From Marmoricola sp. (GTDB lineage: Bacteria; Actinomycetota; Actinomycetes; Propionibacteriales; Nocardioidaceae), in assembly GCA_025964775.1 (NCBI GenBank), contig JAOPYE010000002.1, positions 1 to 64,000 of the forward strand: a stretch of DNA of 64,000 bases. The letters are read 5' to 3'. The notes under the pieces are model-generated. The model was given only the letters and a program-made list of their open reading frames with translations, did not search any database and had not been told where the DNA came from. A program made the translations under genes and the position numbers. Of this stretch, positions 12,284 through 40,782 are shown piece after piece (position 1 is the stretch's first letter; every line of letters begins with the position of its first letter).

Positions 12284-13105
12284 CTACCCGCGGGCTGCGG
12301 ACCGTTCTGCATAGGTGTTGGCAGCTGCCAGCACGTTGGTGACGTAGGCCTGGTCGTGGTTGAAGGAGTGGATCGCTGCCTGCCACCCCTGCGGAGTCGC
12401 CAGGTCGTGACCGTCTGCGCAGAGATACCTGCCGGCCGTCAGGGCGGCATCGGCGATGTCGCGGGGATCCGCCTTGCCGTCGCCGTCGCCGTCCGTACCC
12501 CAGCGGTCCCAGGTCGAGGCGATGAACTGCATCGGGCCGACCGCGTGCTCCCAGACGGGGTCGCCGTGCCAGGCCTGCGACTCGGGCGTGGAGTGGATGG
12601 CAGCGTAGGTGGTGCCGTCGAGCGCCGGACCGACGATCGTGGTCGAGGAGTACCCGTCAGCCAGCACGGTGCGCCCGCCGAGGGTGCCGTGCTGCGACTC
12701 GATCCAGCCGATGCCGGCCAACGTGTTCCAGGACAGGTGACAGCCCGGATCCCGTTTCGCCATCGCGAACTGCGCATCGCCGTACGCGACCATCGCCTGC
12801 GCCGGAATACCGACCTGCGCACCCATGCGTGCTGCCCAGGCCGGGTCCACCCTGACGGCCGTGTCCCGCACAGTCGACGGCACGTGCACCGGGCTCGTCT
12901 GGACGACCTGCGGCGCCTGCACCGCGTCGACGACTGGTGGCGACGCCGTTGCACCGCCGAGGATCACGACGCTGAGTCCCAGCGCCGCGAGCAGCACCAA
13001 CCCGGCCAGGATCCCGATGACCATCACCCGGGTCGTGGCCACGGTCGGCTCAGCGACAGCAGGCAGCAGGGTGTCGGAGTCGGCGGGCGGCACGTCGACC
13101 ATCAT
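12284..13105 (-). CDS. membrane-anchored lytic transglycosylase (SLT type)
   Basis: 273 residues from the double ATG at 13105. A single N-terminal transmembrane helix (VMVIGILAGLVLLAALGLSV) precedes an extracytoplasmic lytic-transglycosylase domain. The catalytic Glu is expected in GIGWIESQHGTLGG, and AVGPMQFIASTWDRWG with DGDGDGKADPRDI DAA is the family core. It cleaves peptidoglycan glycan strands to 1,6-anhydro-muropeptides. It lies 67 bp downstream of pstB copy 1 on the same strand, so it may be transcribed with the phosphate cluster and provide wall remodelling for the large surface proteins encoded upstream; that link is inference. Confidence 0.85.
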   Translation of the reverse strand: MMVDVPPADSDTLLPAVAEPTVATTRVMVIGILAGLVLLAALGLSVVILGGATASPPVVDAVQAPQVVQTSPVHVPSTVRDTAVRVDPAWAARMGAQVGIPAQAMVAYGDAQFAMAKRDPGCHLSWNTLAGIGWIESQHGTLGGRTVLADGYSSTTIVGPALDGTTYAAIHSTPESQAWHGDPVWEHAVGPMQFIASTWDRWGTDGDGDGKADPRDIADAALTAGRYLCADGHDLATPQGWQAAIHSFNHDQAYVTNVLAAANTYAERSAARG

Positions 13106-13172
13106 GCGGGTACTGAGCAAGACCTCGGTCCCGGTCCTGATCCTCGGACGGTTCGGGACAGCGTCGGCGAAC

Positions 13173-14033
13173 TCAGCCGAAGCGGCCGTTGACGTAGTCG
13201 GCAGTGCGCGGGTCCTGGGGGTTGTCGAACATGGCGACGGTGTCGCCGTGCTCCACGATCGCACCGGGAGTTCCCTGCGACGCGAGGAAGAAGGCGCACT
13301 GGTCCGAGACCCGCAGCGCCTGCTGCATGTTGTGGGTGACGATGACGATCGTGACCTCTTCGGCCAGCGTCCGCATCGTCTCCTCGATGACGCGCGTGGA
13401 CGTCGGGTCCAGGGCGGAGCAGGGCTCGTCCATCAGCAGCACCCGCGGCCGGATCGCCATCGAGCGAGCGATGCACAGACGCTGCTGCTGACCGCCGGAC
13501 AGACCGCCGCCGGGCGCGTCCAGCCGGTCCTTGACCTCGTTCCAGAGTCCGCCGAGCTTGAGGCAGTGCTCGACGAGGTAGTCCTTCTCGTCGTTCGACG
13601 CCTTCGTGCCCGTGAGCCTGAGGCCGGCCAGCACGTTCTCGCGGATGGACATGGCGGGGAACGGGTTGGGCTTCTGGAAGACCATGCCGATGTCGCGGCG
13701 AGCCCGGGTGATGCGCACCGTCGCGTCGTAGATGTCTTCGCCGTCGAGCATGACCTCGCCGGCCAGGGAAGCACCGGGCACCAGCTCGTGCATCCGGTTC
13801 AGGATCCGCAGGAAGGTCGACTTGCCACACCCGGAGGGCCCGATCAGGGACGTGATCTTGCCCGCGGGCATCGTGAGCGAGACGCGCTCGAGGACCTTGT
13901 GGTCGCCGAACCAGGCCGACACGTCGATGGCCTTCAGCTCGGCCAGGGAGGGGTTGGACGGGTCTGCCGGTACCTTCGCCATCTCCGACTCGAAAACGCG
14001 TGTTTCCTCGTCGATGCTCGGTGCGTAGGTCAT
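13173..14033 (-). CDS. pstB: phosphate ABC transporter ATP-binding protein, copy 1
   Basis: 286 residues from ATG at 14033, which has GGAAGG a few bases upstream. It energises phosphate import by the PstC-PstA permease. Walker A GPSGCGKST, Q-loop GMVFQKPNPFP, signature LSGGQQQRLCIARS, Walker B LLMDEPCSALD and the switch VTHNMQQA are intact. An N-terminal extension of about 40 residues precedes the ABC domain. Unlike a classical pstSCAB operon, it is separated from pstC/pstA copy 1 by three large genes and stands after a sortase-like gene, an order partly repeated by copy 2. Confidence 0.95.
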   Translation of the reverse strand: MTYAPSIDEETRVFESEMAKVPADPSNPSLAELKAIDVSAWFGDHKVLERVSLTMPAGKITSLIGPSGCGKSTFLRILNRMHELVPGASLAGEVMLDGEDIYDATVRITRARRDIGMVFQKPNPFPAMSIRENVLAGLRLTGTKASNDEKDYLVEHCLKLGGLWNEVKDRLDAPGGGLSGGQQQRLCIARSMAIRPRVLLMDEPCSALDPTSTRVIEETMRTLAEEVTIVIVTHNMQQALRVSDQCAFFLASQGTPGAIVEHGDTVAMFDNPQDPRTADYVNGRFG

Positions 14034-14112
14034 GGGCTTCCTTCCAATCGGATGCAGCAATTATGCGGTGCCGCCGACCCACGAACTGGCACAGATGGGA
14101 CGGGTGGGGCGA

Positions 14113-14156
14113 GTTGGGCAAGTGTTCGGGTCTGGTTCACCTTGCGTTCAATAAAG
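14113..14156 (+). promoter_or_regulatory. four-unit PHO-box-like direct repeat upstream of pstB copy 1
   Basis: Four consecutive 11-bp units begin with GTT at 14113, 14124, 14135 and 14146: GTTGGGCAAGT, GTTCGGGTCTG, GTTCACCTTGC and GTTCAATAAAG. This is the 11-bp periodicity of PhoP sites in streptomycetes. The repeat reads on the plus strand although the gene it would serve (pstB copy 1, start at 14033) is on the minus strand. Its last units overlap the 3' end of the sortase-like gene. PhoP binding is inferred. Confidence 0.55.
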
Positions 14157-39355: not shown

Positions 39356-39415
39356 TGACTTCTCTTTCTAAGAGGTAGTGGTGCGAGGTTGAGGAGAGGT
39401 GAAGAGTCAGACCTG

Positions 39416-39454
39416 CTGTGTGGGTCCCGTGGTGCAGACCCGGGACCCACACAG
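39416..39454 (-). terminator. strong hairpin terminator after the secreted PstS-like gene
   Basis: Perfect 14-bp arms at 39416-39429 and 39441-39454 enclose an 11-nt loop, starting 5 bp after the stop at 39460. The stem is GC-rich. It separates the abundant-looking secreted PstS-like gene from the WxL-like gene downstream. Confidence 0.75.
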
Positions 39455-39459
39455 GTGGA

Positions 39460-40782
39460 TCAGTAACCAGCCGGGCAGGTGCCCGGGAGCGCTGAGCCCG
39501 TGCCCGTGGAGTACGACAGGACGCCGAAGCCGAACTTCTTGATGATCGTCTTGCCACCGCTGGAGAAGATCTGGCCGGTGCCACCACCCGACAGGGTGCT
39601 GACGAGGGCGCTCTGCTTCGGGGTACCACCGATGAACGACGCGGCGATGATGTCGTAGGTGTCACGGTTGAAGACGCCGACGCCGGGCACCGGAGCAACG
39701 TTGAAGTTGCCCGAGAAGTCCGTGCTTCCGAACATCGGGCCCTGAGCAGCCGAGCTGCCGGAGCCGATCACGGCCGCGTTGACCACGTTGCTCGTGTCGA
39801 TGAAGGACGCGATCGCCATCGTCGTGTTGTTCAGCGTGTTCGTCGCAGCACCAGTCTGCTGCGAGATCCACTGCGCAGCCGAGAACGGAATGATCGCGCC
39901 AGCAACGGTCAGCGCACGACCGTTGTTCTCCTCGTACGGCGCCCCGGTACCGGTGACCGAACCGGGCGCATCGCTGACGTACGCCGCGTTGGCACCCTGG
40001 GTGTTGCTGATGCCTGCGGCGCTCGCGAAGAACTTCCGGGTTCCGGACGCGCTCTGCGGCAGGGTCGGGAACACCTGGAAGGAGGACCCGACGGCGAGGC
40101 CGTTGTTGTTGCCTGCGACACCGTTGAGGAATACCTGGGCAGTCGCATCAGCGTGTGCGTCGCTCTCGGCCACGCCACCCGCGGTCTCGAAGGTGACGAC
40201 GCCGTCCGCGCTGGGCAGGCCCTTGTAGAGCGCAGTGATGTCAGCCGTCGTCAGGGCGAGGCCCGACGGCAGGCCGCTGGAGGCAGCGCCGACAACCTGG
40301 GTGTTGTAGCCCATCGACACCGCGTCACGAGCGAACGGGAGGTAGGTCAGCGGGCCGGAAGTGCCCGAAGGACCGCTGGAGGAACGCGCGAAGTCGACCT
40401 CCTGGTTGTTCAGGTTCCAGCTGGAGGCGGGCGTGCTGATGTTCAGCAGGTGGGTCGGGTCGCCGGTCGTGTCCCAGGTCGCGCACTCGGCCTTCTGGCC
40501 ATCGCCCGAACCGTTCGGCCGCGAGAACCAGGTACCGGCGGTCTTGGTGTGGATCGTGTTGTAGGCGACACCGTTGCTGGTGGCGTCGAACGAAGCGATC
40601 GACGGCACCACGGCAGTCGAGTCGTTGGTCAGGCCGTTCCAGACGTCCTGAATCGTGTCGGAGCCGACGGTCGCGTAGGGGCGAACCGGATCGGCGAACG
40701 CGGGGACCGCGGCCATGGAGACCAACGCGGACGTGGCAAGGACTGCCACGCCGCTGGCCACAAACTTCTTGCTCAGCTTCAT
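39460..40782 (-). CDS. secreted PstS-like substrate-binding protein (VGSDTIQD family)
   Basis: 440 residues from ATG at 40782. A Sec signal peptide (AVPAFAD) is followed by YATVGSDTIQDVWNGL, EVDFARSSSG in the place of the PstS Asp segment, LPFARDAVSMG, and PQSASGTRKFF in the place of the phosphate-binding SGT loop. There is neither lipobox nor transmembrane tail, so the protein should be released or held by partners. It is the first gene of the supercluster, has its own terminator and a PHO-box-like site far upstream. Its paralogue with an Ig tail is at 15184-17109. Phosphate as ligand is inferred. Confidence 0.82.
   Translation of the reverse strand: MKLSKKFVASGVAVLATSALVSMAAVPAFADPVRPYATVGSDTIQDVWNGLTNDSTAVVPSIASFDATSNGVAYNTIHTKTAGTWFSRPNGSGDGQKAECATWDTTGDPTHLLNISTPASSWNLNNQEVDFARSSSGPSGTSGPLTYLPFARDAVSMGYNTQVVGAASSGLPSGLALTTADITALYKGLPSADGVVTFETAGGVAESDAHADATAQVFLNGVAGNNNGLAVGSSFQVFPTLPQSASGTRKFFASAAGISNTQGANAAYVSDAPGSVTGTGAPYEENNGRALTVAGAIIPFSAAQWISQQTGAATNTLNNTTMAIASFIDTSNVVNAAVIGSGSSAAQGPMFGSTDFSGNFNVAPVPGVGVFNRDTYDIIAASFIGGTPKQSALVSTLSGGGTGQIFSSGGKTIIKKFGFGVLSYSTGTGSALPGTCPAGY

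Follow-up and report, generated by a model that had tools for sequence, protein, structure and literature searches.

A conserved Pst-type transport unit with an inactive sortase and a PstS-related large protein, present in two copies on a Marmoricola contig

We analysed a 64,000-nucleotide stretch of DNA, hereafter the window, corresponding to the initial 64 kb of contig C15 in the 53-contig, 3.9 Mb genome of a Marmoricola sp. Between an Mfd-like gene (named by eye) and position 40782 the window carries 20 minus-strand genes, most of them in two units that each encode a Pst-type transporter together with surface proteins. Set 1 (24401-40782) has 11 genes and reads from the secreted binding protein PBP440 through a 678-residue WWGHEG/Ig/WxL-like protein, a 395-residue DUF916-like protein, a 366-residue WWGHEG protein, a 585-residue WWGHEG/Ig protein (WWG585) and the large protein big923 to PstC1, PstA1, PstS1, pseudosortase 2 and, lastly, PstB1. 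Set 2 (12284-23767) reads PstC2, PstA2, PstS2, the large protein big868, the binding protein PBP642, pseudosortase 1, PstB2 and a lytic transglycosylase. The genes are closely packed, with overlaps of 4-8 bp in seven adjacent pairs (PstA2 being read from a TTG at 22763) and a total of 1,006 intergenic bases within 12284-41058 (genes as called, before the PstA2 start was corrected).

An original prediction had described 12284-40782 as one continuous 28-kb supercluster containing two PstC-PstA-PstS-PstB sets tied to other genes by start-stop overlaps, with no phoU in the window. All the genes it named are present on the minus strand and the overlaps are as described; phoU is absent from the window, and a genome-wide search placed both PhoU matches of the genome on contig C33. 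The continuity did not stand. The two sets are separated by the gene p183 and an 85-bp gap that holds the best PHO-box-like site of the window, and related loci show one unit per stretch fetched (up to about 10 kb on each side). A single 28-kb operon was therefore ruled out in favour of two separate units. The genome holds three copies of a single conserved unit, and two of them make up this region. The third set, on contig C1, encodes PstC, PstA, PstS, a 931-residue large protein, a pseudosortase, a binding protein and PstB, as well as a protein similar to WWG585. Elsewhere in the genome, C5 carries a classical pst operon, and on C33 phoU adjoins a histidine kinase and a response regulator.

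Both sets encode two Pst-type permeases, a PstS and a PstB together, with PF00528, PF12849 and PF00005 all matched above the Pfam cut-offs. The permeases (PF00528) are PstC1 (29293-30309) and PstA1 (27987-29291) in set 1, and PstC2 (22760-23767) and PstA2 (21498-22763, the proposed TTG start giving a 4-bp overlap with PstC2) in set 2. PstS1 (26263-27990; PF12849, E = 1e-31) and PstS2 (19835-21505; PF12849, E = 4.9e-33) have a C-terminal membrane helix and no lipobox, and score 185 and 190 bits, under the TIGR00975 cut-off of 205. PstS1 matched PstS structures in the PDB (best E = 8e-26), and all 17 solved relatives listed carry phosphate-binding protein names. Among the 77 PstS proteins of related units, a C-terminal hydrophobic helix is present in every one and a lipobox in none; all 77 keep the phosphate-binding loop by a loose pattern, and each of the six residues of RSDGSG is conserved in 69-77 of them.

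The ATPases are PstB1 (24401-25309; PF00005, 335.8 bits against TIGR00972) and PstB2 (13173-14033; PF00005, 330.4 bits). The PstB proteins of the three sets all fall at 330-336 bits, under the TIGR00972 cut-off of 343.2, and are 68-72% identical to one another and 55-56% identical to the classical copy of the genome. In a PstB tree the unit proteins, PstB1 and PstB2 among them, group in a single clade (73 members, support 1.0), and 31 classical PstB lie outside it. A fragment of fewer than 200 residues (L092) was left out of the tree, and the minus-strand ABC proteins of L047 and L051, which had been picked up by the hidden Markov model (HMM), were placed outside the clade. Walker A and signature motifs are visible by eye in the unit ATPases.

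Pseudosortase 2 (25325-26266; PF04203, E = 1.4e-15) in set 1 and pseudosortase 1 (14148-15179; PF04203, E = 1e-15) in set 2 match the sortase domain above its cut-off, and in both the catalytic His is replaced by Arg and the Cys by Ala, which bears out the prediction of two catalytically dead sortases. The catalytic His and Cys were found in none of the 75 pseudosortases examined (0/70 and 0/5); the His to Arg change is strict in the family, which also has a conserved -LLPNL-like end. The proteins have a sortase domain by sequence and membrane helices in common with class D/E sortases (PF04203; NCBIfam NF033747 is the best match) but differ in the replaced catalytic residues, and the window's two score 69 and 63 bits against a class E cut-off of 160. 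As a separate observation, a second sortase (PF04203) follows PstB at L024:18554-19273 on the plus strand; it appears active, with His and Cys present by eye, and nine other loci each have one related open reading frame (only that of L024 was inspected).

The large proteins big923 (30306-33077, set 1) and big868 (17232-19817, set 2; 861 residues from the chosen start, with a C-terminal helix) are relatives of PstS that lack the phosphate loop. Alignment of the large-protein family to PstS with hhalign gave a probability of 96.5 (E = 1e-9), and comparison of a predicted structure with the PDB assigned residues 325-760 of big868 to the PstS, or type 2 binding-protein, fold, so that a novel fold was ruled out for these residues. 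The two large anchored proteins of the prediction are thus both present, and are now identified as PstS relatives. Their family comprises 83 entries from 81 stretches; the phosphate-loop pattern occurs in none of the 83, and 62 passed a test for a C-terminal helix. The fold of big868 residues 325-760 is shared with M. tuberculosis PstS1 and PstS3 (PDB 1pc3, 4lvq), from which the protein differs by about 320 additional N-terminal residues, the lost loop and the C-terminal helix. The closest named relative of big923 is a Nocardioides baekrokdamisoli protein (71% identity).

Each set also encodes a binding protein without a membrane anchor. PBP642 (15184-17109), which has an Ig-like C-terminus, matched PF12849 at 32.1 bits, over the cut-off, in a whole-genome search, although hmmscan of the window protein did not list this match; its Big_3_5 match (E = 6.8e-7) is below the family cut-off. 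PBP440 (39460-40782), of the VGSDTIQD family, matched no Pfam family at E <= 0.01 and hit the PDB just once, at chance level, and is grouped with PBP642 solely through the family HMM built here. Two extra secreted PstS-like proteins had been predicted; PBP642 qualifies by Pfam, and PBP440 by the family HMM alone. In the family, a C-terminal transmembrane helix was found in 0/76 and the loop [SAG]G[TSA]R in 66/76.

To place the two sets among their relatives, genome records were scanned with the large-protein alignment and the best 80 of 362 relatives were kept, giving 79 loci on which all synteny counts are made. Hosts include Nocardioides, Arthrobacter, Pseudarthrobacter, Leifsonia, Herbiconiux, Streptomyces, Streptacidiphilus, Actinoplanes, Hamadaea, Amycolatopsis, Planotetraspora and metagenome-assembled genomes labelled Acidimicrobiaceae; such labels are possibly wrong, and two loci are labelled Bifidobacterium breve. 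With HMMs built from the loci, PstS was found in 74, the secreted binding protein in 72, PstC in 69, the pseudosortase in 67, PstB in 66 and PstA in 65. All six genes occur in 57 of the 79 by HMM and in 60 after tblastn, which recovered PstA in four loci where the HMM step had missed it and completed three of them (L041, L071 and L092); the remaining 19 abut a contig end. PstB is the next assigned gene after the pseudosortase in 66/67 cases. In Nocardioides and Micrococcales the order is binding protein, surface genes, large protein, PstC, PstA, PstS, pseudosortase and PstB, nine loci of this type also having the transglycosylase. In Streptomyces and others it is PstC, PstA, PstS, large protein, binding protein, surface genes, pseudosortase and PstB, with the binding protein elsewhere in some loci. 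Two distant genomes (L160 and L161) have the partners in other orders and a shorter large protein. Surface genes are thus kept beside pst genes across Actinomycetota, in line with the linkage that had been predicted and contrary to the first condition named as refuting it, and are the most variable part of the loci.

The large protein and the pseudosortase occur together. Among 149 genomes of the taxonomic family to which the window belongs, the large protein (E <= 1e-40) was found in 39 and the pseudosortase (E <= 1e-20) in 39, and these are the identical 39 genomes. Within them the large protein occupies 54 places and the pseudosortase 53, and for 52 of the 53 pseudosortases a large protein lies within 8.7 kb on the same contig; the exception (G309:C182) is on a contig without a large protein. 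Neither protein was found at 30 classical PstB loci, the best-scoring ones, within short flanks of about 1.5 kb. Across the phylum 34/296 genomes matched, seven of them at E < 1e-100; G016 and G001 carry a shorter relative, and the rest are weak, partial matches, probably through cross-matching to PstS. Searching two large proteins against 72,556 plasmid records gave no match to either at E <= 1e-5. In two further distant genomes (L162 and L163) a PstB below the family cut-off has permeases next to it, but neither a pseudosortase nor a large protein was found within 20 kb; these loci are perhaps a further Pst-like kind.

We then looked for PHO-box-like sites with a matrix of two 11-nt repeats, made by hand from the consensus. 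The PhoP box is described as having a GTTCACC core and 11-bp repeats (PMC9019756, PMC7866108). Five single-base shuffles of the window, scored on one strand, gave a maximum of 16.7. The three top hits of the window lie in or at the edges of gaps in the cluster. The best, GTTCACCCTCCGTTTACCAATC (23807-23828, minus strand, score 22.3), is upstream of PstC2, and GTTCACGGTGTGTTCACCCAAC (17199-17220, minus strand, 18.7) is upstream of PBP642. The remaining one (14135-14156, plus strand, 20.6) stands before PstB2 and overlaps the end of pseudosortase 1. For comparison, the top site of a 14-kb region of C5 scores 25.4 and lies 93 bp before the classical pstS. Sixty-eight related loci were tested, 11 of the 79 having been dropped (10 lacking PstC, and L081, where fewer than 700 bases separate the first gene from the edge). 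In 22/68 loci the best site of the locus falls within the 500 bp preceding the first gene, and in 41/68 a top-5% window does; 100 column-permuted motifs average 3.3 and 8.6 loci and reach at most 12 and 20. The 68 loci are not independent events because they are related. Doublets thus mark set 2 and 41/68 related loci, which supports the predicted response to phosphate indirectly, and we consider it likely that the unit is switched on by phosphate starvation. Elsewhere, at L020:7373-7439, phoU is divergent from a histidine-kinase/response-regulator pair, and a weak doublet (13.7, at 7412 on the minus strand, within the shuffle range) lies in the intergenic stretch.

Among the surface proteins of set 1, the 678-residue protein (37319-39355) combines a WWGHEG module, Ig domains (Big_3_5) and a WxL-like C-terminus (by eye), the DUF916/WxLIP-like protein (36011-37198) has 395 residues from the chosen start, the 366-residue WWGHEG protein (34914-36014) has a C-terminal helix, and WWG585 (33120-34877) has two Ig-like stretches (PF16640, E = 8.6e-22). 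As predicted, one module is common to the three WWGHEG proteins; GWWG is invariant in its 37-row alignment. The model of the 366-residue protein has 183/366 residues at a predicted local distance difference test score (pLDDT) of at least 90 and no match among PDB structures, and we regard the domain as a candidate new fold. A database search with it gave 38 proteins including the query, the few named ones being from Nocardioides, Marmoricola or Nocardioidaceae. For the predicted WxL-like/DUF916 pair the matches come from relatives, 12/15 members of the DUF916-like family matching PF06030 at E <= 0.01 (best 1.2e-9) and 1/12 members of the WWG/WxL-like alignment matching PF13731. The window's own proteins match neither, the 395-residue one giving only DUF7507, below its cut-off. 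In WxL/DUF916 (WxLIP) clusters (PMC10599100), too, a DUF916-like membrane protein accompanies proteins whose C-termini are WxL-like; here the candidate pair is linked to Pst transporters and found in Actinomycetota, with the WxL match confined to one of 12 members.

The predicted lytic transglycosylase (12284-13102, start uncertain) matched PF13406, and a relative stands in the same place after PstB in 9/79 related loci. At L028:20037-22076, downstream of the transglycosylase, lies a protein that combines three PASTA domains with a kinase domain matched below its cut-off; five further loci have related open reading frames. For p183 (23853-24404) a relative was found in 1/79 related loci; its membership of the unit is doubtful, and kinship with the DUF1508-like proteins upstream of PstC elsewhere was not supported (hhalign probabilities of 0.9 and 2.9). 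In 10 loci (including L040:5186-5806 and L065:5511-5900) a small protein is encoded towards the front of the unit; the two copies scanned match DUF1508 weakly, and the protein is related (hhalign 97.5) to one that Arthrobacter-type loci have upstream of the binding protein.

With classical PstSCAB, as outlined in part of an Actinobacteria review (PMC7866108), the unit has in common the PstC and PstA permeases, the PstB ATPase, the phosphate loop of PstS and PHO-box-like sites. It differs in the separate PstB clade below the TIGR00972 cut-off, in a PstS with a C-terminal helix and no lipobox, in the added pseudosortase, large pseudo-PstS and free binding protein, and in having no phoU. The lipid anchor reported for S. 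lividans PstS (PMC2605767) is absent from the unit PstS. Since PstS and PstB fall below the equivalog cut-offs, the anchoring is different and the extra partners are constant, the unit appears to be a Pst variant rather than classical Pst. The review describes, in the text available, one PstSCAB system plus Pit (PMC7866108), and its main text does not contain the word sortase. Among the matches listed in literature searches for pseudosortase, inactive sortase with ABC transporter, and pstS with sortase, no description of the unit was found.

With moderate, roughly even confidence, we read the unit as a conserved Pst-type subfamily predicted to import phosphate under PhoP control, with the inactive pseudosortase and the pseudo-PstS as structural subunits. 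Along the lines of the surface capture and hand-over to the permease put forward in the original prediction, PBP440 and PBP642 would capture phosphate in the wall layer, the membrane-anchored PstS would hand it to PstC-PstA, and PstB would power uptake. The pseudosortase may grip the C-terminal tails of PstS and the large protein, which resemble sorting signals, and seat them on the permease, the large protein may act as a spacer or gate for PstS, and the WWGHEG, Ig, WxL-like and DUF916-like proteins could link the complex to peptidoglycan. More tentatively, it is possible that this amounts to a new ABC importer architecture, in which a dead sortase as clamp and a dead PstS as spacer or gate are obligate subunits and a wall-spanning relay of binding proteins brings phosphate across the thick actinobacterial envelope.

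Several observations weigh against import of phosphate by such a complex. The position that we take to be Asp56 of E. coli PstS is Asp in 39/75 and Glu in 36/75, the residue following GSG is Ala in 22/77, and the PstS loop of the C1 set has diverged (HSEGAG), while the binding-protein loop is missing from 10/76. The ligand could therefore differ from phosphate, given the Asp/Glu split and the Ala after GSG, and might be phosphite, arsenate, organic phosphate, or phosphate that the transglycosylase and wall proteins set free at the wall. The Ala/Ser/Thr variation in the PstS site and the several sets per genome, suggestive of differing specificities, would suit this alternative, but we think it rather unlikely in view of the conserved RSDGSG residues, the PHO-box-like sites and the names of the 17 solved relatives. 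For the binding proteins, PstS released to the supernatant takes no part in uptake in S. lividans (PMC2605767), which calls for caution over PBP440 as a phosphate donor. Regulation has its own exceptions. One of the three strong sites (14135-14156) faces away from the genes and its role is for that reason doubtful, the set 1 sites are within the shuffle range (12.3 before PBP440 and 14.3 before WWG585), the C1 set has no doublet scoring above 13.0, and 27/68 loci have no top-5% site. The pseudosortase HMM was seeded with the window's two dead copies and so favours dead members, and the contact between pseudosortase and tails is a bare proposal. The distribution is also patchy (39/149 family genomes, and 7/296 across the phylum at E < 1e-100).

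Patchiness and dead residues would fit a simple duplication of ordinary pst operons, with surface genes hitch-hiking along and with the pseudosortase and large protein as decaying leftovers; the identical genome sets, the gene adjacency, the strict His to Arg change and the conserved -LLPNL-like end make this very improbable, and we disfavour it. Inactive paralogues could instead be signalling parts of a phosphate sensor that reports external phosphate to PhoR/PhoU rather than importing it in bulk, as three extra sets alongside a classical pst operon and the grouping of phoU, histidine kinase and response regulator on C33 might suggest. The permeases are complete, however, the ATPases have Walker A and signature motifs, and the window's units have no kinase or PhoU, so that we regard a sensor as unlikely. 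A low-phosphate surface layer or adhesin system with transport secondary would account for the WWGHEG, Ig, WxL-like and DUF916-like proteins. These surface genes vary most, which fits it, yet the conserved core is transporter, large protein and pseudosortase; a DUF916-like match was found in only 2/28 Streptomyces loci (some truncated by contig ends), and in the two loci inspected, L044 and L061, the binding protein itself bears Ig repeats. We judge this improbable.

Pst, one of the most thoroughly studied nutrient importers, is generally presented as a single machine of four parts. If our reading of a widespread Pst-type subfamily with structural pseudosortase and pseudo-PstS subunits is true, it would show how phosphate passes through a thick Gram-positive wall with two inactive paralogues as fixed partners, and the sortase fold would gain a non-enzymatic role in transport. 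It would also be relevant to phosphate scavenging in Streptomyces, Arthrobacter and Nocardioides.

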